Shown: positions 8,668 to 60,597 of the stretch, piece by piece | Position numbering within the stretch: position 1 is the stretch's first letter | Layout of the letters: each line of letters opens with the position of its first letter | DNA from: Saprolegnia diclina VS20 | Taxonomy: Eukaryota > Oomycota > Saprolegniomycetes > Saprolegniales > Saprolegniaceae | DNA: 64,000 nt | NCBI RefSeq assembly: GCF_000281045.1 | Contig: NW_008246092.1 | Location: 457,091 to 521,090, forward strand | Reading direction: 5' to 3' | Translations under genes and position numbers: made by a program | Notes under the pieces: generated by a model | Databases searched by the model: none | Told to the model about the DNA's origin: nothing | What the model saw: the letters and a program-made list of their open reading frames with translations, nothing else

Positions 8668-10166
8668 ATGTCCTTTGTCAAGTCCCTCGTGCGTCAGTTC
8701 AGCGGCGCCTCAAGGTACGTCGTCAGTCAGCACCGCGCAGGCGATCATGCCCCCTAGCTCGATCGAGACGGTCGAGCAAATGCTCGAGAAGGAGCGGCAA
8801 CAGCGACGCGACGAGCTGGAGCAAGCCAAGCAAACACGCGCGACCAACGCCATGTACCAAAGCGCAAGCCTTTCTCTTCAAGACACGCTGCTGCGTTCGG
8901 CGCAGCAGCAGCTCACGCGGCTTCCCTCCCACGGCTCGGAGCGGTACGTACCCAACTGCCGTGACCATGCTTTAACGACGCCCTTATAGCTCGTTTGCAT
9001 CCATGCGACGGTCGCGCGAGAGCTCGTTCGAGATCATTGAAATGTCCCGCGAAGGCTCTTTCCACGAAATCAGCGCATCAGATTTGCATGAGTTTGTCGA
9101 CGTCGGTGCGCCTTCTGCCCGCCGCCTGCACGAGCTGGCGTGCATGCAAGCTGAAGATGTCAACGCCCGCGCCATGGTCTCGTCGCTGGCTCATACGGAC
9201 GAGTCTTTGCCGCCTCTGTCCTCGCTCGCTGCGCGCTACTCGTCCGAGTGGATCGAAGCCGCCTTGCAACGCGTGTCCGCGCCGGTGCCAGCCATGTACA
9301 TTCGCTACCGCAAGGTCGAGCCGGTTGTCGCCAAGACCGTCGCATCCGCCGCCGTGCACGAGTACCTCGTCCAAGGCTTGCGCTCGGCTGTGACGACACG
9401 GATCGAGTGTGCTGGTATGGAAGCTCACGACTTGGCCGCGCCCCAGACGGAGCAAGAGACCATGGCGAAGCACGACGTTAACGTCAAGACAGACTGCACC
9501 GAGATGGCAGCGATGGCAAAGCACGACGTCAATGTGGCGGCGACCAACCGCGAGCAAGATCGTATGGCGCGACACGACGTGGATACCCCACAGCACTGCG
9601 CAGAACCCCAACGTGTGCGCTCCCAGGATGTGACGTCGGTCACACTGACGGCCCTTGAGCGCGCTCGCTCCGTGGCGATGCGGCTCCATGATGTGAACGT
9701 CCCAACACCGGCGACTGAAGCTTCGAGTGCCGCAGAGATGGCACGGGCGACGCTGACGATGCCAGAGCAGGATGCAGCGATCAAGATGCGTGACAGCGCC
9801 CGAGCCGCCAAGGTATGTCGCCACACACGTGGTCCTCTGACTCTGAATCGACCAGGAGCTTGCTGCATTTTACGCCACCCGCAAGCAAGCGCGGCAAGCA
9901 CGTTTGCTCCAGAACCGGTACAGATTCCGGGAGGCGGCTGTCGACGCTCACGCGTGATTAGCTCGGACGAGGAGCACAAGATGTCGGCGATGCAAGAGCA
10001 GGCGAGCTGGGGCAAGGTGCTGCAACTAATCGATGGGTGCGATCGTGTCACTGGGAAATCGGAACTTCACACCGGGTCGTGTAGCCCCACGCACCATTCA
10101 ACGTTCGCGTCTGTGCCTGCGCCCATGTCGCGCATGTTCAACATGCTCAAGGGCTACGCGGCCTAA
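8668..10166 (+). CDS. Repeat protein with clathrin-light-chain-like C-terminus
   Basis: Five exons (8668-8714, 8758-8943, 8990-9812, 9856-9917, 9962-10166) give 440 residues. After a short leader (MSFVKSLVRQFSGAS) there is a charged helix, then serine-rich sequence. At about residues 210-320 comes a degenerate tandem repeat of roughly 17-20 residues with the core MA(K/R)HDV(N/D)V, seen as MAKHDVNV twice, MARHDVDT, then weaker RSQDVT and RLHDVNV. The region before the end is basic helix (FYATRKQARQARLL), followed by EQASWGKVLQLID and MSRMFNMLKGYAA. The last two blocks are arranged like the end of clathrin light chain (E-W-x-x-V-x-x-L-x-D ... SRM-x-x-L), but the resemblance is weak. Function not assigned. 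Confidence 0.68.
9453..9690 (+). repeat. Degenerate tandem coding repeat, MAKHDVNV unit
   Basis: Within the 8668 gene, units built on ATGGCGAAGCACGACGT recur at spacings of about 54-57 bases (near 9462, 9516, 9564) and then fade into diverged copies. Confidence 0.6.
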
Positions 10167-31901: not shown

Positions 31902-34558
31902 ATGGAAAGCGCGAGCGCCGAGCCGCCGATGGCCGCCACCGAGTATGGCCAGCACGCACCGAGCAACCCGATGGCCGCCGGCGTCGGCGGAAGCCAGCGC
32001 GACGATGCGCATGCGACGGTGCCCCGCAAGCCCACGGCGAGCTTCCAGGATATCCTCCAGAAGGCCATCGAGCTCAAGATCGTGCACCCGAGCGCGCTCT
32101 CGACCTACGTTGCGAGCGCCACCGCCGTCATGACCTCCGTGGCGCCAAGCACGGTCATGAGCCGCATGGCGCAGGCGAACGGTGCGACGACGTTGCAACA
32201 TCACGCTGCGGCTGCTAACGGCACGGTGCATAGGACCGGCACACGGCGGCAGTGCGGACAAGAGTCTACCGGTACGACGCGATGCATGCAATGACACGAC
32301 GAAGGCGATATGTAGGTGGTGTCGCCGGACGAGCTCACGATCGCGTCGACGTTCAACACGCAGCGCGTGCCCGTGAACCAGACCCGCATGGAGTTTGTCG
32401 ACTTCAAGCAACTGTCGTCCGCGCTCAAGCGGCTCGCGATGCACTGCGGCTTTGAGATCCGCGTCAAGTACTCGTCCAAGCGTAACAAGCGCTGGGAGTG
32501 CCGCGAGCCCGGTACACGATCCTGTCAACGTGCCAAGCTCATCCCGTCATCGTCGTAGGCTGCACGTTCATTTTAAGTGGGTACAAGAACAAGGACGACC
32601 GAGTCCACGTCACCGACATTGAACTATCGCACAACCACGCGGGCGTGGCGTCGGCGGCCGAGACCGTCGACGCGCACGACTCGGAAGGCACTGGCGACGA
32701 GCATGCAGGCGAGACGCGACCGCACGAGTCGCGGCTTACGCGCAACACAACGCTCTCGAACGAGCTCGTGCTTGCCGGTGTCTTTGACTCGGAAGTCGGG
32801 CAGCTGATCATTCTCAAGGACCCGGAAGAACTCAAACTCAAAGACATCCAGGGCATCTTACTGACCCAGTTTGGGTCCCAAATCTCGGCGTCCATGGCGT
32901 CCCGCGCCAAGCGCAAGCTCGTCGAAATGTTCTACGAGACGTCCAACTTGAGCTACCAGCAGCTGCGGCCGTTCTTCGAGAAGGTCGTGACCGCCAACCC
33001 CGGCAGCTTTTACGTCATGGACCACGTGCCCAACCCGCACGACGGTACTTCTTACCTCGTCTCTCAAATACCGAACTACCTCTTTGTAGGCTCGGGCGTC
33101 TACGAGTACGGCCGGTGCCTCCTCGGCATTGGTGCGGCCATCCGACTCCTCAAGGACTGTGCGCCCGTCCTCGCCCTCGAGGCGTGTGCCATGAACGCCG
33201 TACGCTTCGTTAGCGATTGCAATTTTGCATCCGGAATGCGTAGGAGATGCACAAGTCGGGGGTCCTCCTCGTCCTGAGCACGCGCGACTACAACGGCGAC
33301 GTCATCTACCTCGCGCTCGCCCACGTGCCGCTGGACGACTATGTCAACTGGGTCTGGTTCCTCGAGCGGCTTAAAGCCAACGGGGTGCCGACGATCGCCA
33401 ACGTCACGTGCTTCGTCTCGAACGGCGCGCCCGACATTGCGCGCGCCGTGAGCCACGTTTTTCCCGCGCAGCCGCACCGGTTCGTCATCGAGCACATGAT
33501 CCCGCTCATCGCGGCCGCGTCGCCGTCGCTCAACCGTCTCGGGCCCGAGGTCGAGCACCTCATCAAGCAAATGGCCGCCAGCACCAACATGGTATCGTCT
33601 CGATCGACGAGCGTAGGCTGGACGGTTGCGGTGTAGGACCAGTACATGGACTCGTTCCAGCTGCTGTGGCGGATCGACAAGGGTAGAGTGCGCCTCATCA
33701 ACGCGTCGACACTGTACTGCTGTGTAGATCTTGGACGGTACCTCGAGGGTATCCCAAAGGAGCATTGGGTCGTGGCTGCGATCCTCAACCGCGGGTGGCC
33801 GCTGCTCAACGAAGTCGTGCTCGTGCACTGCGTCGGCGAGTTTGGCACGAGTCCGCTCGGGTCGCTCCTCCGGTCGTGCAACCTCGCGCCGTGCTTTTAC
33901 CTCTTCCTCCTCTCGATCCAGAAGACGCTTGTGAGCCGGTCGCTCACGGCCCGCGCGATGCCCGACCGCGTCCTTTTGCCCGCGCAGCAAAACATTCTAC
34001 TCAAACGCACGGTCGAGAGCGGCCGGTACGAGATCCAAGAGTGCCGGCCGCAAGAGGTCTACTTTGCGCAGTACCACACGGTCAGCTCGTCCTCGAATGC
34101 GTTCAAACTCGTCAACATTGTCGGGCGTACGTGCACGTGCGGCGAGTGGCAGCAGAACCACATCCCGTGCCTCCATGCGATCGCCGTTCTCAACTGCCTC
34201 TCCAAAAACGTCCTCGAGTACGTCAACGAGTGGTACTTCACCACGTGCCACAAGGCTTTGTACGCCCGGTACGCTTCACATGCGCTGCTGGCAGCGGCTT
34301 TTCTGACACTTGCCATCGTGCAGGGCGGCGCCGGTCGTGCCCGTGCCCCCCATCGATCTCAAACCCGACGTGACGCTCAAGGCGCCGGCGCGGATCCTCG
34401 CTCAGCTCCAAGAAGCCCTCAACGCCGCAGCGCCACTCGACCCGTGCGAATACCCTTACCCTAGCATCTCTTGACATATGTTGGGTAGGTCGATGCGCAG
34501 CAAGCCCGGCCCGCGCCCGCGCAAGCGCAAGGACATGGCGTCGACCATGAGCCATTGA
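31902..34558 (+). CDS. MULE-transposase-derived SWIM zinc-finger protein
   Basis: Nine exons (31902-32225, 32316-32511, 32559-33044, 33090-33199, 33244-33591, 33637-33682, 33728-34268, 34324-34443, 34489-34558) sum to 746 codons plus stop. It has the FAR1/MUDR order. First is a WRKY-GCM1/FLYWCH-like N-terminal domain (WECREPGCTFIL ... IELSHNH). A MULE transposase core follows (SGVLLVLSTRDYNGDVIYLALAHV, WVWFLERL). A SWIM finger (CTCGEWQQNHIPCLHAIAV) comes next, and the C-terminus is basic (KPGPRPRKRKD), a likely nuclear localisation signal. The first and second catalytic acids appear changed (LEACAMN and VSNGA where LD and SD are usual). No terminal inverted repeats were seen. It is more likely a domesticated DNA-binding regulator than an active element. 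Confidence 0.83.
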
Positions 34559-43396: not shown

Positions 43397-44235
43397 TTAG
43401 TCGTCGTGCATTGGGAACGCGTGCACCTCGGGCCACCGCGGCTGCATGCGGCAGAACCAATAGATAAGGGTGAGGCAGCTCAACGTTGAGATGCTGACGC
43501 CGACACCAAAGTTCTTGGTATACTGCAGCCAGCTCAGAAAGGCGATCGTGAGCAGGACGAGCACGATACCTACAGCAACATGCTTTCGTACGGTGCGACG
43601 AGGGATCGCTCGAGCGTCGTACCCGTGCGGAAGAGAGTGAAGGCCATGTGCCAATCTTTCTCGCAACGCAGCAGCCACCACTGCGTGAATGGCGACACGA
43701 CGTCGAGGTGCTCGATCTTGACGGCGCGCAGCTGGTCCTCGAGGTCCTCGGTCGCATACCTATTTGCATGATAGGCTTGGTGCGTCTCTTTGGCGTACCT
43801 CGCGACAGCGATCTGGATGAGGACGACGATGATCATGCACATGATCATGCACAAGACGCCCAAGGCCGCGGACGAGCCCTGCAAGGCGACAATGATCGGG
43901 TTGCCGTTTTTGGGAATCTGCGACTCGACGTACGCGACGCGCGCAAAGTACGCGACGACGATCGAGATCTGCGAGATGTGCAAAAGCTGCTCCGTGCGAA
44001 TGTCGATGAGGCAGCGCTCGTTCGCGAGCTTCTCGAGCCGGCGGACGCGCTCAATGTCTTGGAGCCGCCACGCGTGGCGCCGGCGGATGTCGTCTTCGCG
44101 CCACTGCTGGCGCTGGCGCACGTACTCGACGTCGTCGAGCCGCCACATCTTGAAGTTTTGCACGTCGTACGAACCCATGAGCGCGCTCACGACCGAGTCG
44201 ACTGTCGAGAGCCCTTGCGCCTTGCCGCTATACAT
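43397..44235 (-). CDS. ORAI-like calcium channel protein, copy A
   Basis: Three exons (44235-43799, 43759-43623, 43569-43397) total 248 codons plus stop. A charged N-terminal helix (YVRQRQQWREDDIRRRHAWR) leads into four predicted membrane segments. The first, with VVAYFARVAYVESQIP, aligns with the ORAI TM1 signature GFAMVAxVExQL and keeps the glutamate that forms the CRAC channel selectivity filter. TM2 is a long hydrophobic run (LCMIMCMIIVVLIQIAVA). A conserved linker SPFTQWWLLRCEKDWHMAF follows and then TM3 and TM4. ORAI channels are plasma-membrane calcium channels gated by STIM; no STIM is visible here. Family assignment rests on topology and the TM1 motif. Confidence 0.72.
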
Positions 44236-44471
44236 GCTGCAGCAGCGACGAGTACCAGGTACGACGAGCTCTGCAGGCGGCGGGCCGTGCCAGGTGCTTG
44301 GGTGTGTAATCAACTACAACCCTTGCGACAGAGCTTCTTTGGCTGAAAACACACAACTGGACTCGCGACCCTCCAGCACATGCAGGTACAACCCGAGGTA
44401 CAACGGTCCAGGCTCCTTGGTACGCGCGCTGAAGACGACAGACAACGCGTGCGTGTTTCTAGACCATTACG

Positions 44472-45383
44472 CTAGTGCGCTCGGCGTGGCGACGCGGCCG
44501 TGACGGTGATGTCAATGGGCCCGTGCACCTCGATGGCCGGCAGCTTCATCAGGTAGCGCCATCGGCTCAGAATGCGGAACTGCCAAATGAGAATGCCAAT
44601 GGCCGCGACGATCGAGATGCTGATCGACGTCGTCTGGTACAAGTTGTACTGGACCCACGAGACGACGGCGAGCTCGATGAGGAAGAGTGTGACGCCTACA
44701 TATCGACAAGACGATCGATAAGACGCTCCTGGGACTCTCTCTACCAGTGCGAAAGAGGAGGTAGCCGAGCGACCAGTCCGTCTCGCATTTCTTGAGCCAC
44801 CAAATGTGGAACGGCGAGTCCATGTCGATCTCTTCGTCCTTGAGGATCCGAACGTCGTACTCGAGCTCATGGGCCGAGTAACGTGTGACAGCGAGCAGTA
44901 AAATCGCGCACATGATGAGCGAGATGACCATGCAGCAGATCTATGCGTTTGTCAGAACCTTGGAAGACGCATCAGTAGTCCTACCGTGAGGGCAGAGACG
45001 CAGCCATAGACTGCGAGCAGCGTCAAGTCAATGTCCTCGGGCACGTTGACGTTGATGATCGAGACGAGCGCAAAGCCGCCGAGGAGCGCGCCGAGCTCCG
45101 AGATAGCCGAGAGCTGCTCGGCGCGCGTATCTGCTTGGCGCCGTTCGTTCTCGAGCTTGGCCTAGCAGCAGCATCGTTCGCATCATCAGCTCCACGCATG
45201 TACGTGTCGACGGACCTGGATGCGGAGGCGGCGAATGTCTTCGATGCGCCACTCGTTCTCGCGGCGAAGGTCGTCCTGGCGCCACTGCAGCTCCTGGCTG
45301 CGCTGGGTCATGTCCTCGTCGCGCCACGCCTTGGCGTTGCGCTGGTCATAGGACCCGATGAGGTTCTCCATGATGGACTCCAT
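44472..45383 (-). CDS. ORAI-like protein, copy B, pore Glu replaced
   Basis: Four exons (45383-45216, 45161-44985, 44940-44745, 44695-44472) total 254 codons plus stop. It shares with its neighbours the NLIGSYDQRNAKAWRDEDM start, the charged helix, four membrane segments and the SPFHIWWLKKCETDW linker. TM1 reads GALLGGFALVSIINVNVP: the position that is glutamate in copies A and C and in animal ORAI (E106 of human ORAI1) is asparagine. The codon is AAC on the minus strand near 45056, so it is seen directly. It may be a modulatory or non-calcium-selective subunit. Copy C starts 176 bases away in the opposite direction. Confidence 0.72.
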
Positions 45384-45559
45384 GCTCTCGTCGCGTGCTG
45401 CTAGCCAGATGGAAACTACCTCTCGGATGCGGATACATGTAATAGAAAGCGCAGATTCAAAGTTCCTTAGTAAAACCAAGAGTCGCATGTCGAATTTTTA
45501 CTCCACACGGTTGCTCACGCAAGTCGCGATTTCCATTTCGCCCACGCAGCAGCACCAAG

Positions 45560-46655
45560 ATGAACGCGGTCGTCGGCGCCATGATGGGGTCCTACGACCT
45601 CCAGAACGCGCAGCGCTGGCGCACCGAGGACATGGAGCACCGCAAGCAAGAGATCCAGTGGCGCGAAGACGACGTGAAGCGGCAGCATGCGTGGCGGCTC
45701 GAAGACATTGAACGCGAGCGCCGCCTCCAGAAGCTCGAGAACGAGCGCCGGGTCACAGACGCACGCAGCGAGCAGCTCTCGGCGGTCTCGAACCTCTCGG
45801 CGCTCCTCGGCGGCTTCGCCATGGTGGCCAACGTCGAAATCAACTTGCCCGATGATGTAGCATGGAGCGTCATGTTCCTCTACGGCACTGTGAGTGCCAG
45901 CGTCATCTTGTGCATGCTTTGCTGCATGCTCATGTGCACGCTCCTCCTCCTCGCGATTACGCGGTACCTCCTTTCCTTTTCATTGCCTTGGTCAAGCTCA
46001 TGGCGTGTAGGTACGCGTCGCTGGATCTCGAAAACGACCTGCGGCTCCTCGATTTCGAGCAGCTTGACGTCGAGTCGCCGTTCTACGTCTGGTGGCTCAA
46101 GCGCTGCGAGAAGGACTGGCAGCTTGCATATGGCTTCTTCCGTGTCGGTTCGTCCTTCGCTTGTGAAGATATCTCGGTGAAAGGCTTGGCCTCGTAGGTA
46201 TATTTCTGTTCCTGTGGACGGTCGCGCTCGTGGGCTGGGTCCAGTTTGAGCGGACGATCTACGCTGGCATTGGCATGTCGACCATCTCGTTCCTCTCGTT
46301 TGTGTTTTGGCAAGTGCGGATGGAGAGCAAGTGGCGCTACCTCCTTGAGTCCCCGGAGGGCGCGAGCGTCCCACCTTCGTACCAGCAAGTGTCGGACGAA
46401 GAGGCGCGGCTCCGGACGCGGTCGCTCACGGAGCTCTTTGAGCGCGTCTTCACGACACGCAACAACACCAGTGGTCGCACCACGGAGCCCGACGACCGAC
46501 GCACAACCCGATACGGCGCGTACGTCCCTGCATCATCTCCCTCCCGAGACCCCACGTCGGTCGCACGCTGACCGACGCCTTGTCCGTCGCTCCGTAGGCT
46601 CACGACCCCTCGGCCGTCCCAAGACGCCGCCAGCGAGGCCCGTCGGCGGGTGTAG
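45560..46655 (+). CDS. ORAI-like calcium channel protein, copy C
   Basis: Four exons (45560-45963, 46011-46147, 46198-46519, 46598-46655) total 306 codons plus stop; reading through the last intron would instead end at 46571. The N-terminus (AMMGSYDLQNAQRWRTEDM) and charged helix match copies A and B. TM1 is SALLGGFAMVANVEINLP, the closest of the three to animal ORAI (SALLSGFAMVAMVEVQLD in human ORAI1) with the pore glutamate kept. The SPFYVWWLKRCEKDW linker, TM3 and TM4 follow, then a longer cytosolic tail than in the other copies. The 137-base second exon equals the middle exon of copy A, supporting recent common origin. Confidence 0.8.
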
Positions 46656-55638: not shown

Positions 55639-56244
55639 GAGGCCCATGTCCTGTATATTACGTGTGCAGCGTACGACAACAAAAGATTGAGCGCATTTAT
55701 GAGGTGTTCTCTTACTCTTACGTAAATACATATACTGTAGCACTCAATGCTACGTGTGGGTGTAGCTGCAACACCCACACGTTGCGTTCCGCAGAGGCCT
55801 CCAGACAGAAGGTGCAAGCCGAAGCTGTTGCCACACCATAAACAGCAGGGCGATGACACGACCACACCGCAATCAACGAGCGAATCGGACCAGGGGGAAG
55901 CGAGTGTTCACGTTGGTCATCGAAGAGCTAGAACAATATCAGTACTAGTACATTGAAGCTGGAGCGGCGTCTCCTTCCCTAACCCCTGGCGAACAAGCGG
56001 CGTCCCACGGAGCTATTGCGTCCTTTCCAGGGTCTTGTGAGTGATGGTAGCGCCGTTGGGGGCCACAGCTGTGCATACGATCCGCTGGGACTGGCATCGT
56101 ACTAGTACAAGCGAGTGGCGCTGGTTGGTGTGGGCAAGGATGGTCGCCAGCGACCTTCATTCATGCACCCAGCACCTGCACTCACGCGCATCAACGCTGC
56201 TTGTGGCCACACAACGCTCACTTTCCATTTTGCCTTCCAGCAGC
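55639..56244. other. Intergenic, no supported gene
   Basis: About 600 bases between two genes on the same strand. An in-frame extension of the next gene reaches back to an ATG at 56044 but shows no coding character. Nothing else is recognised. Confidence 0.4.
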
Positions 56245-57777
56245 ATGAGCAGCTTTGCCGACGCCGCCAAGCAACTCGCGTCGATGACGACGACGGCCAA
56301 CGGCGCGCTCTCGCACGCATCAACCTCGAGTTCGCGCGTCGACTTGTTCTCGGGTGTGCTCCGGGGCACGGAAGAGGCGCGCATCCAGGCGCTTCTCGCC
56401 GCGTCCTACAAGGAAGATGCGCTGCACACGCTCAAGATCGTCGCCTACTTGCGCGACGTTCGCGGCGGCAAGGGCGAGCGCCAAGCCGCGCGTTTGGCGC
56501 TGCACTGGCTCGCCAAGAACCACCCGAACGTGCTCTCGCACAACCTCAAGCACTATGTCAGTGTGTATGGTCGGTTCGATGACCTTCTCGCCGTCATGGG
56601 CACGCCGTTGGAGGCGACGGCGCTTGGTATCTGGGCCGACCAGCTCCGCGACGACCTCGGAAACATCAAGGACGCGGACGAGAAGCAACCCGTGAGTCTA
56701 TGCGCCAAGTGGGTGCCGTCCGAAAAGAAGGCAGCTGACAAGAAGACGCGCGTGCACGCCAAGCTGGCCAAAGTCATGGGGCTCTCGAGCGCGGACCTCC
56801 GCAAGACGTACCTCTCGCCGCTCCGGGCGCATCTGCAGCTCCTCGAGCGCCACATGTGTGCCAACGAGTGGGACAAGATCGACTTGAGTGCTGTCCCGAG
56901 TGTTGCCATGCACATCCACGGCAAGCCCAACCACGCATTCCAGCGCCATTTGCCAGAAACGTTTGCGACGTGGAAGGCCGGCTTGAAGACGGGCGAGACC
57001 AAGGTCAATGCGTCCGTGCTCTTCCCGCACCAAGTCGTGTCGCAGTACTTTGGCCCGTATGACGCCATGGCCACCGATCTCGACCCGCTCCTCGAGGCGC
57101 AGTGGGCGGCTATGGTCGATCACGCCAAAGACCTTGGCACGCTCAGCCGCACGGTTGTCATGTCGGACGTCTCGGGCTCCATGAATGGGCTGCCCATGAT
57201 GGTGTCGCTCGCGCTCGGCATCCTCGTGTCGTCGCTGGCCGCCGATGAGTACAGAGACCTCGTCATGACGTTCGACTCGACGCCGACCTTCTTCCACGTG
57301 CAAGGCGACTCGCTCTTGGCCAAGGTGCAGTGCCTCGCGGCGGCGCCGTGGGGCGGCTCGACCAACTTTGTCGCAGCCCTCCGGCTCATCATCGCTCTCG
57401 GTCTCGACAAGCAGATTGCCCGTGAGAAGATGCCGCAAAAGCTTATTGTGATTTCCGACATGCAGTTTGACGAGGCCGACAACGCATTCGAGACCAACTA
57501 CGACGTGCTCAAAGCCGAGTTTGCCGCCGCAGGCTACGACGTGCCGCAAGTCATCTTCTGGAACGTGAACGGCAGCACGACGGACTTTCCGACACTGAGC
57601 TCGGAGGCCAACGTGTCGCTCATCTCGGGCTACTCGCCGAGCGTCATGAAGGCGGCGCTCGCCGGCACAAGCACGAGTCCGCTCCAGACGATGCTCACAG
57701 CGATTTTGGACGCGCGCTACGATTTGATTACACTGCCGCGATCCGATGACGACGACGACGACATGGAGATTGTCTAG
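56245..57777 (+). CDS. DUF2828-type protein with vWA-like domain
   Basis: Intronless, 510 residues from the ATG at 56245 (MSSFADAAKQL); the frame stays open upstream to an ATG at 56044, but that extension looks non-coding. The N-terminal part is DUF2828: LRDVRGGKGERQAARLALHW, HYVSVYGRFDDLLAV, LCAKWVPSEKKAADKKTRV. The C-terminal part is a von Willebrand A-like domain with a MIDAS motif (VVMSDVSGSMNGLP, DxSxS) and PWGGSTNFVAAL, ending in an acidic tail. The overall plan resembles the TROVE/Ro60 helical-ring plus vWA arrangement, so RNA or protein scaffolding is possible. Such genes are widespread in plants, fungi and oomycetes with no settled function. Confidence 0.9.
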   Translation: MSSFADAAKQLASMTTTANGALSHASTSSSRVDLFSGVLRGTEEARIQALLAASYKEDALHTLKIVAYLRDVRGGKGERQAARLALHWLAKNHPNVLSHNLKHYVSVYGRFDDLLAVMGTPLEATALGIWADQLRDDLGNIKDADEKQPVSLCAKWVPSEKKAADKKTRVHAKLAKVMGLSSADLRKTYLSPLRAHLQLLERHMCANEWDKIDLSAVPSVAMHIHGKPNHAFQRHLPETFATWKAGLKTGETKVNASVLFPHQVVSQYFGPYDAMATDLDPLLEAQWAAMVDHAKDLGTLSRTVVMSDVSGSMNGLPMMVSLALGILVSSLAADEYRDLVMTFDSTPTFFHVQGDSLLAKVQCLAAAPWGGSTNFVAALRLIIALGLDKQIAREKMPQKLIVISDMQFDEADNAFETNYDVLKAEFAAAGYDVPQVIFWNVNGSTTDFPTLSSEANVSLISGYSPSVMKAALAGTSTSPLQTMLTAILDARYDLITLPRSDDDDDDMEIV

Positions 57778-58126
57778 TGTTTGGATTTCATTCTATTTAT
57801 ATACACATTAACCGGATGGCGTGTCTGCTGTCTTTGAAAGTGATCGTAATTCGCGCGGAAAAAATGACCACTCGTGCCTTCTTCATGCTGGCGTGTATTC
57901 GTGTATGAAGGGTGTATATCATGGGTCTAATTTCAATACATCGTGGTGTCTAGACTGCAACCCGTGGATATGAAAACCTGAATATGACCGAAAGCCGAAA
58001 GCCGATTGGTTGTTGCCAGCGGGTTGTTGCGACTTGACAATTGACCGTCAAAACAAGGTCGCCTTGAGTTGCGCGTGCTATCGCCAACCCCAGCCATTGC
58101 CCGATTTACCCCTACGCTTGACCGTG
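57778..58126. other. Intergenic, promoter of membrane protein gene
   Basis: AT-richer than the flanks, with an ATTGG box at 58005 about 120 bases before the next ATG. No coding frame is supported. Confidence 0.4.
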
Positions 58127-59125
58127 ATGGAGACGTCGTGGGTGGATGCCAACGGCCTCGCGCTACTCTCCGACGTTGGTCGCTCCATGAACTTGACCGG
58201 CCACGCCTACACCATGCTCCTCGACGCGGCGCAAGCCAAGCTCCTTGACTACCGCGACAAGGACCCTCTCGTGTACTCGGTCTCGCTGCTTGTCGCTGGC
58301 CTCATGGCCATCGTCGTCGGCTACATGGCACTTCGTTTTCGGCGCGCTGTGCTCGCATGTGTTGCGTACATCATTGTGCTCGGCGTCCTCTGCTTTATCA
58401 CGGGGAGCGACCCGTTCGCACCTCTTGCCGTCCTCGCCGCTGTCAGTCTCGTCGCGGTCCTCGCGCGCTCGGAAAACCACTTGACGCATGTGCTGCTGCT
58501 TCCGTCAGCAGCGGTTTTCCGCGCCTTCTCCACATACTGCCTTGACGGTCTACACACCAGCGCGACGACTCTTCTCGACGTCGTTGCGGACGCCACAAGC
58601 CTCGACATGAGAATTCTTCTCATCGCCTTTGCACTCGGCAGCGCCGGCATCTACTGCTACAACGGTCGGTTCGCGGAGCGGATCAAGAGTGCGTTTGTCT
58701 TTGTCTCTCTCGCAGCCGTGCTCAGCGCGTGGCTCTCGGTCGTCTACGCGCTCGGTCTGGCGTGCCTCCTCACGTGGCTGCAGAGGTTTGACTGGGCTCT
58801 GCTGGCGATGATACTCTGCGCTGAGTTTGCATTCGTCGCCATGCCAACGACGCCCGTGGTCCTAGTGCTTCGCGATATCGGCGGCATCTACGTGCTCGCC
58901 GTTCCGGGGCGACGCCTCATGGTCAAGCTACTGACCATGGGCCTTGACGGTGTCGCTATGTTCGCTGGAGCGACCCCTTGCTGCGTCTTCCTTGCCAACC
59001 ACATTGTCCCGGCGGTAACTGGATTCAAAATCCCCAACTCTGTCACGGGAGTTTTCTTCGGAATCGTCTTCATGCGCTTAACCAAGCAAGCTACCCCAGC
59101 CTCGCAGGAGCCGGCGGGAAATTGA
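58127..59125 (+). CDS. Polytopic membrane protein of unknown family, copy 1
   Basis: Intronless, 332 residues from the ATG at 58127. After a polar N-terminus (SWVDANGLALLSDVGRSMN) there are about eight to ten hydrophobic segments, such as YSVSLLVAGLMAIVVGYMAL and VLACVAYIIVLGVLCFI. It has no visible signal peptide or catalytic motif. It is a paralogue of the next gene, sharing VDANGLA-x-x-S ... RSMN-x-T ... AY, a basic stop after TM1, and GIYxYxGRxxxxxxxxF in the middle. I do not recognise the family; a transporter or channel-like role is possible only from topology. Confidence 0.82.
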   Translation: METSWVDANGLALLSDVGRSMNLTGHAYTMLLDAAQAKLLDYRDKDPLVYSVSLLVAGLMAIVVGYMALRFRRAVLACVAYIIVLGVLCFITGSDPFAPLAVLAAVSLVAVLARSENHLTHVLLLPSAAVFRAFSTYCLDGLHTSATTLLDVVADATSLDMRILLIAFALGSAGIYCYNGRFAERIKSAFVFVSLAAVLSAWLSVVYALGLACLLTWLQRFDWALLAMILCAEFAFVAMPTTPVVLVLRDIGGIYVLAVPGRRLMVKLLTMGLDGVAMFAGATPCCVFLANHIVPAVTGFKIPNSVTGVFFGIVFMRLTKQATPASQEPAGN

Positions 59126-59505: not shown

Positions 59506-60597
59506 ATGATGGCGTCCTGGCTCGTCGACGCCAACGGCCTTGCGTTCGTCTCGCACACCGAGAGGTCGATGAACCGCACCTTCACAGCCTACGACACCTG
59601 GCTCAACGACACGCGCACAGCGGTATTGGACCCGACCGAGAAACCGCTGCTGAGCTACCTCGCGACGCTCGCGCTCGCAGCTACCGCCGCCGTGCTGCTC
59701 GGGCGCTACGCGTATCGCTACAAACGCACGTTTGTGTTCTGCGCCATGTACATTGTCATCCTCGGCGCGCTGCCCGTGTGTCTTCCCGGCCTCGTCCAGG
59801 ACGACGCGCCGTTCGCCGCCATGGCCGTCGGCCTCGCGCTGGCGGGCGCAGTTGCCTTTACAACCTCGATGCGTCTCTCGCTCATGGCTCTGTACGCGCC
59901 CGTGATGTACATGTTCTTTCGTTCGCTTATCGGCAAGTACATTGGATGGCTTCAAGCGTCGTCGACGACAATGCTCGCCATGTCGCCCGTCGATCTCGAT
60001 GTGTGCGTTCCGCTTGGCGCCTTTGCGCTCCTTAGCGCGGGCATCTACAGCTACGACGGCCGATACAGCCTCGAGCTTGAGCGCACCTTTCTCTTTGGGT
60101 GCCTCGTCGCCTCGGCGACCGCTGCGCCGCTCACGGGGTCATTTTCCCTCTGGGCCATAGCGCTCGCCTGTGTCGTGGCGGTCGTCGGAACATATCTGCG
60201 CCAAATTGGCTGGGCCGTGCTCTGGTCTCTGCAATTGTACCAGCTGCTGGACATTGCGATCCCGAGTGTCCCCGTGCTCTTGATCTGCCGGGACGTTGCG
60301 TGTTTTGGCTTGATTGTGCCCGTGTTACGCCTCGTCATCACGACCAACGACGCGATCCACGGCCTCCTCAGCTACGTCATTACGTGCCTAGTGACGCCGG
60401 CGTGTGCGTGCTTCGTCATCGACGCTCTTGTCGCGCTTACTGGCTGGAAGGCGCTCGAGGCGCTGAAGCTTTGGGTCGCTCTCGGCGCCTACTATTACGT
60501 CATCATGCAGCCCGATTTTGCGGCCCCGAAGAACCCAGAGCGTCGCGAGGACGACAGCGATGCTATTGACGCGCCCACCTCCGATAGCATCGTCTAG
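59506..60597 (+). CDS. Polytopic membrane protein of unknown family, copy 2
   Basis: Intronless, 363 residues (a second ATG one codon later is equivalent). It has the same plan as the previous gene: polar start SWLVDANGLAFVSHTERSMN, then about nine hydrophobic segments (YLATLALAATAAVLLGRYAY, FVFCAMYIVILGALPVCL, YVITCLVTPACACFVIDALV). Its cytosolic tail (PERREDDSDAIDAPTSDSIV) is longer and acidic. The two genes are tandem on the same strand 380 bases apart, consistent with local duplication followed by strong divergence. Function unknown. Confidence 0.83.
   Translation: MMASWLVDANGLAFVSHTERSMNRTFTAYDTWLNDTRTAVLDPTEKPLLSYLATLALAATAAVLLGRYAYRYKRTFVFCAMYIVILGALPVCLPGLVQDDAPFAAMAVGLALAGAVAFTTSMRLSLMALYAPVMYMFFRSLIGKYIGWLQASSTTMLAMSPVDLDVCVPLGAFALLSAGIYSYDGRYSLELERTFLFGCLVASATAAPLTGSFSLWAIALACVVAVVGTYLRQIGWAVLWSLQLYQLLDIAIPSVPVLLICRDVACFGLIVPVLRLVITTNDAIHGLLSYVITCLVTPACACFVIDALVALTGWKALEALKLWVALGAYYYVIMQPDFAAPKNPERREDDSDAIDAPTSDSIV

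Follow-up and report, generated by a model that had tools for sequence, protein, structure and literature searches.

We analyzed a window of 64,000 nucleotides from the oomycete Saprolegnia diclina VS20 (contig NW_008246092.1, positions 457,091 to 521,090, forward strand), in which three adjoining intron-bearing genes at window positions 43397–46655 encode Orai-type calcium channel proteins, called copies A, B, and C here. Copy B has an asparagine in place of the selectivity-filter glutamate of animal Orai (human E106, Drosophila E178), while copies A and C keep the glutamate. Proteins with Glu and Asn at this position are designated E- and N-types, respectively. Judging from the sequences of the relatives, the Asn-filter type is a widespread oomycete type kept beside the normal type. 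We give roughly even chances to the reading that the cluster consists of three Orai pore subunits, namely the E-type copy C, the N-type copy B that would co-assemble with it to alter Ca2+ permeation, and the changed duplicate copy A.

An earlier note on this DNA had proposed three adjacent genes at this site, and the gene models agree with it. Copies A and B lie on the minus strand and copy C on the plus strand. Copy A (43397–44235, 248 residues) is composed of exons 44235–43799, 43759–43623, and 43569–43397 (437, 137, and 173 bases). Copy B (44472–45383, 254 residues) is composed of exons 45383–45216, 45161–44985, 44940–44745, and 44695–44472 (168, 177, 196, and 224 bases). Copy C (45560–46655, 306 residues) has exons 45560–45963, 46011–46147, 46198–46519, and 46598–46655 (404, 137, 322, and 58 bases) in a four-exon model that ends at position 46655; read with three exons instead, the gene would end at 46572 and give 304 residues. 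The introns chosen are all of the GT-AG type and 39–78 bases long. Each gene has other splice choices with open frames, between which homology decided, and the copy A model was selected in this way from four open alternatives. The splice choices for copies B and C are upheld, since both models equal listed S. diclina proteins: copy B is letter-identical to SDRG_08419 (P0023 in our protein set) and four-exon copy C to SDRG_08420 (P0001). Copy A has no identical twin among the listed proteins. The end of copy B is 236 bases from the start of copy A. Copies B and C point away from each other, and the 176 bases separating their start codons (45384–45559) are probably a shared promoter region. Searches of the genome with PF07856 (5 matches) and with the proteins, in each of which the best candidates were scored, pointed only to this cluster, apart from one weak protein match at C1 (E 0.045). 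Additional Orai copies elsewhere in the genome were rejected on these grounds.

The assignments to the Orai family and to an oomycete are strongly supported. The profile search that the earlier note had named as a check gave significant matches to PF07856 for copies A (66.6 bits, E 2.8e-18), B (114.1 bits, E 7.3e-33), and C (125.1 bits, E 3.1e-36, computed on the three-exon model), where the curated cut-off is 25 bits. Copies B and C cover positions 3–169 of the 173 in the family model, and all 60 alignment members match it at E<=0.001. Each copy has four hydrophobic segments and a charged region at its N-terminus, as had been claimed, and in the predicted structures four transmembrane helices adopt the Orai fold. 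The best structural matches are Drosophila Orai. In the monomer models of copies B and C, the TM1 helix is matched with the pore helix of Drosophila Orai, and from the starts of these alignments residue 93 falls at Drosophila E178 in both. The four-helix fold and the register of TM1 are the same as in animal Orai (Drosophila Orai, PDB 4hkr, 6bbf, and others; human ORAI1). That these are unrelated four-helix membrane proteins resembling Orai in TM1 by chance is hardly conceivable, given the agreement among Pfam, the PDB profile, and structure and the nearly complete span of the family model by copies B and C.

The motifs on which the family had originally been recognized are less uniform than stated. 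The TM1 signature GFAMVAxVExxL, described for all three copies, is present in copy C, which retains SALLxGFAMVAxVE of animal Orai, but copy A reads YFARVAYVESQI and copy B reads GFALVSIINVNV. Likewise, the TM2–TM3 linker WWLxRCEKDW is exact in copies A and C, whereas copy B has WWLKKCETDW. Animal Orai was said to lack this linker. The WW and CE residues are indeed found in the window proteins and not in animal Orai, but the linker itself aligns to Drosophila Orai ESPHERLHWYIETAW, with ESP shared.

The earlier note passed over the filter position, which is the main point of the cluster. Alignment and codons place Glu93 of copy C (GAA, 45836–45838, plus strand) and Glu104 of copy A (GAG, 43924–43926, minus strand) at the position of human E106, the latter within an altered TM1 (YFARVAYVE). 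In copy B, the corresponding codon is AAC (45051–45053, minus strand), and Asn93 replaces the selectivity glutamate. The structural alignments of copy B with Drosophila Orai, starting at 63–148, 59–144, and 71–156, also assign residue 93 to E178. Animal Orai carries basic residues in the inner pore (human K87 and R91), which have no basic counterpart at either position in the three copies: position 87 is Ser in copies B and C and Leu in copy A, and position 91 is Glu in copy B, Asn in copy C, and Gln in copy A. Copy C appears to be an E-type subunit of the canonical kind, which could in principle line the pore of a Ca2+-selective hexamer. Copy B is, by its residues, an N-type subunit with the filter Asn and an inner-pore Glu at the position of human R91. 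As far as sequence can tell, Asn93 bars calling copy B a Ca2+-selective Orai subunit, though its family homology is unaffected.

Relatives were collected to compare these positions. In the third protein search, the best 7,989 candidates, those sharing most words, were scored and gave 76 matches; the named ones are from oomycetes, except for one mite. Viral and prokaryote collections contained 25 and 2 pattern stretches, respectively, none of which was confirmed as a relative. In all, 89 rows were aligned, made up of 84 database proteins (one of them, P0006, split in two), three window proteins, and one Drosophila chain. Before the filter residues were counted, proteins without TM1 (P0021, P0022, P0079, and P0080), near-copies (P0013 and P0014), the window's own genes (P0001 and P0023), and two animal rows were dropped. 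The remaining 79 rows are distinct, gapless between human positions 84 and 106, and represent 90%-identity clusters; 25 of them (15 Asn, 10 Glu) have no species name. Some database names in this set do not fit: P0046 is called 'Homoserine dehydrogenase', P0019 'Copper transporter', and P0080 'Calcium uniporter protein'. PF07856 is carried by the former two, and P0080 has no listed Pfam domain.

The filter residue is Asn in 49 rows, Glu in 29, and Asp in one (Hyaloperonospora brassicae). By a hand count of names, the Asn type occurs in 27 species, the Glu type (including the Asp row) in 17, both types in 12, and either type in 32. Position 91 in the Asn rows is Glu in 43 and Ser in six, all six from Aphanomyces, while the other 30 rows have Gln (15), Asn (9), His (2), Glu (2), Ser (1), and Lys (1). 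Basic residues are rare among the 79 rows, found at position 87 in five (Arg 3, His 2) and at position 91 in three (His 2, Lys 1). In a second N-type set of Aphanomyces (P0025, P0026, P0028, and P0029), human position 95 in the hydrophobic pore section is likewise Glu; this accounts for 4 of 14 Saprolegniales-type N rows. Several E-type rows, mostly of Peronosporaceae (P0018, P0019, P0046, P0057, P0062, P0063, and P0066), have a strongly changed TM1, with Phe at position 98 and Gln at position 105 in all seven, and the Asp at position 106 in H. brassicae.

It could be supposed that the filter asparagine is a product of neutral drift in a decaying duplicate, and the diverged TM1 of copy A and of some Peronosporaceae E-type rows, together with the single Asp row, fits such drift. 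Drift would, however, be expected to leave a mixture of residues, whereas Asn is found in every one of the 49 distinct rows of this type, across 27 named species, with adjacent positions varying. Decay of the B type is unlikely because Asn is fixed across its rows, and we regard drift as a very improbable explanation. Copy B as a pseudogene was likewise rejected, since the gene is intact, is identical to a listed S. diclina protein, and has relatives in 27 named species.

A comparison by columns groups the rows by filter residue, and overlap at that column is zero by construction. A tree of 75 rows in which the filter column was masked, so that this residue was not used for grouping, provides a non-circular test. 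In this tree, the 45 Asn rows fall into two clades, one of 13 Saprolegniales rows and one of 32 rows including Peronosporales and Albugo, each supported at 100/100. The fewest filter-state changes on the tree are two. Constraining all Asn rows to one clade costs only 0.03 log-likelihood units (p-AU 0.482). A single origin that predates the separation of the orders is therefore as good a fit as two independent ones, with neither rejected nor shown. Finer points of the tree are unsure because several branches are long.

Copy A pairs with the second half of P0006 of Thraustotheca clavata (THRCLA_10342) at 100/100 inside a nine-row Saprolegniaceae set of the C type (100/99), though on long branches. 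Identities are 38% between copies A and B, 47% between A and C, and 49% between B and C. Both introns of copy A lie at the same sites and in the same phases in copy C, and the later site, FRx|G, is common to copy B too. Copy A appears to be a fast-evolving duplicate of copy C, judging from its nesting in the tree and the common intron sites and phases. The middle exon of 137 bases pointed out in the earlier note is indeed present in both, with the same flanking phases, and is best explained as a product of this duplication; a separate meaning for it was rejected, since both intron sites and phases are shared. P0006 itself is a database model in which copy B runs on into copy A, which suggests that T. 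clavata has its genes in this B–A order as well. Among the 84 matches, where the best scores to copy A are those of P0006, followed by C types, we noticed no A-type protein standing on its own.

The N-terminal region is a further character of the family. In copy C, residues 2–93 (45563–45838, plus strand) are predicted as one continuous helix comprising the N-terminal extension and TM1, with pLDDT of 94–98 in the blocks from 11 to 90 and 92 in block 91–100, and the same helix of residues 2–93 is predicted in copy B. The window proteins are set apart from animal Orai by this predicted helix, which spans about 90 residues and passes into TM1 without a break. The helix is strongly conserved and common to E- and N-types: among ten-residue blocks, 221–230 is the most conserved (3.59 bits), followed by 11–20 (3.37) and 21–30 (3.31), with 81–90 in TM1 at 2.99. 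Among the residues that do not vary in the Asn rows are Tyr12, Trp20, Asp24, Arg28, Gln33, Trp34, Asp37, Arg41, Trp45, Arg46, and Asp49 (copy C numbering). Conservation over residues 12–72 has a period of 3.45–3.5, the height of which was reached in 20 of 2000 shuffles. We infer that the extension may form a cytosolic helical bundle for assembly or gating. A search of the genome for this region gave nothing significant outside the cluster (best match E 0.67), and on that basis the presence of the helix in another gene, as a possible STIM substitute, was rejected.

These features suggest how the two types may work together, although the heteromers that the earlier note read from the clustering are still conjectural. 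E- and N-type subunits would join in mixed channels in the plasma membrane; co-assembly is proposed because both types share the N-terminal helix and the fold. The N-type subunits would then veto, lower, or retune Ca2+ permeation and so be the equivalent in nature of the E106Q subunit made in the laboratory. According to the accessible part of a review (PMC12893689), E106A, E106C, and E106Q in human Orai1 abolish Ca2+ conductance, a single E106Q in a linked hexamer blocks Ca2+ influx, and E106D makes the pore non-selective. The N-terminal helices may link channel opening to the stores or to further signals, with a protein that is not STIM as the partner. The likeliest mechanism seems to be co-assembly in which the N-type serves as a brake or tuner.

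The N-type might instead form its own homomeric channel, apart from the E-type, that is not Ca2+-selective and passes monovalent or other cations. This is a tentative alternative, to which we give about one chance in four. The two well-supported N clades with their own pore chemistry (Asn at position 106 in 49/49 rows and Glu at position 91 in 43/49) and the non-selective E106D pore are consistent with it. So is the separation of the two types in five species that have both (P. oligandrum, P. belbahrii, Nothophytophthora, P. pseudosyringae, and P. megakarya), where the listed contigs differ in length. In S. diclina (683,613) and A. cochlioides (3,994,282; locus tags 015731 and 015737), the contigs listed for the two types are equally long, and the types thus seem to lie together there. 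Contrarily, the loss of Ca2+ conductance in E106A/C/Q and the N-terminal helix with many invariant residues common to both types, which are possible assembly sites, argue against a separate homomer.

The N-type may also have lost channel function to become a non-conducting scaffold or signaling protein, in parallel to Jiraiya/TMEM221, which the accessible text of PMC7016017 describes as derived from Orai, without Ca2+-binding residues, and thought unlikely to bind Ca2+ directly. This description speaks for such a parallel, as does the Jiraiya profile PF15038, for which 6 of the 60 alignment members reach E<=0.001. However, the match of copy B is weak (16.3 bits, E 0.0076) and under the cut-off of 27 bits, far below its 114 bits to Orai-1, and copies A and C have no match at E<=0.1. 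Moreover, the N-type keeps an Orai-like TM1, with Gly98 and Phe99 in 49/49 Asn rows and one fixed filter residue. Such a scaffold is improbable, less so than drift but more so than the homomer. Jiraiya itself is restricted to animals according to the same source.

Turning to the store-operated setting, the CRAC system of animals has STIM, whereas the STIM domain SOAR (PF16533), the one domain searched, gave no match over the cut-off in an exon-by-exon search of 54.15 Mb; the lone match had E 1.88 and 14 bits, and 14 control genomes, with no STIM-bearing positive control among them, behaved likewise. A STIM-1 match in P. infestans shares only a SAM motif, as stated in the accessible part of PMC4820453. 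IP3-receptor-type domains (PF08709) gave five matches over the cut-off on three contigs, one with internal stops. In the accessible text of PMC7016017, STIM is placed close to the animal root and ORAI at a far earlier point. It is possible, with distinctly less confidence than co-assembly as such, that oomycetes have a two-part Orai system, in which a canonical Glu subunit is joined by an ancient partner with its filter fixed as Asn and, in most cases, with Glu at the cytosolic pore end. In their mixed hexamers, the Asn subunit would act as an inborn brake or selectivity switch, and a six-helix N-terminal bundle in the cytosol would replace STIM as the gate handle.

As for previous descriptions, the accessible text of PMC4820453 reports no detectable STIM or Orai homologues in nine oomycete genomes, with S. 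diclina as one of two representative species, and that of PMC9694693 repeats the absence for P. infestans and 'Saprolegnia declina'. The legend of an Orai tree (Figure 8 of PMC11085791, 2024) includes four oomycetes. The earlier statement that ORAI homologues outside animals are little described agrees with the literature we found, but Orai of oomycetes is named in that legend and in databases, where the oomycete 'calcium release-activated calcium channel protein' of NCBI and UniRef is the same family as the window genes. The accessible text of PMC11085791 makes no mention of a filter difference, type pairing, or gene cluster in its oomycete rows. It describes a divergent diatom Orai clade that, like the oomycete N-type, is a second stramenopile Orai class; compared by description, the diatom class retains the filter glutamate and the oomycete N-type does not. 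No mention of a filter-asparagine Orai was found in the open-licence literature, covered largely at the level of listings. Oomycete Orai is thus not wholly new; the filter-asparagine type is the new point.

Several other open reading frames of the window, all on the plus strand, may be recorded. Those at 58010–59125 and 59506–60597 adjoin each other, are hydrophobic by eye, and have no Pfam match; they are 33% identical over 319 columns (E 2e-31), forming a tandem pair without a known family. The frame at 9003–10166 has seemingly imperfect internal repeats around HDV by eye and no Pfam match. The frame at 33646–34464 has a SWIM zinc finger (PF04434, E 1e-10) and is possibly transposon-derived, and that at 56041–57777 encodes a DUF2828/DUF7788 protein (E 1.4e-53 and 7e-46).

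The cluster contradicts the two papers that, in their accessible parts, report no Orai in oomycetes, one of which names S. diclina, whose listed proteins equal copies B and C. The N-type is a natural, fixed Glu-to-Asn change at the Ca2+-selectivity filter residue in 27 named species, often beside the normal form. The role of a filter-altered subunit in an Orai hexamer, so far approached with engineered mutants, becomes testable with natural proteins, and the family provides an example of how Orai may be gated in organisms without reported STIM.
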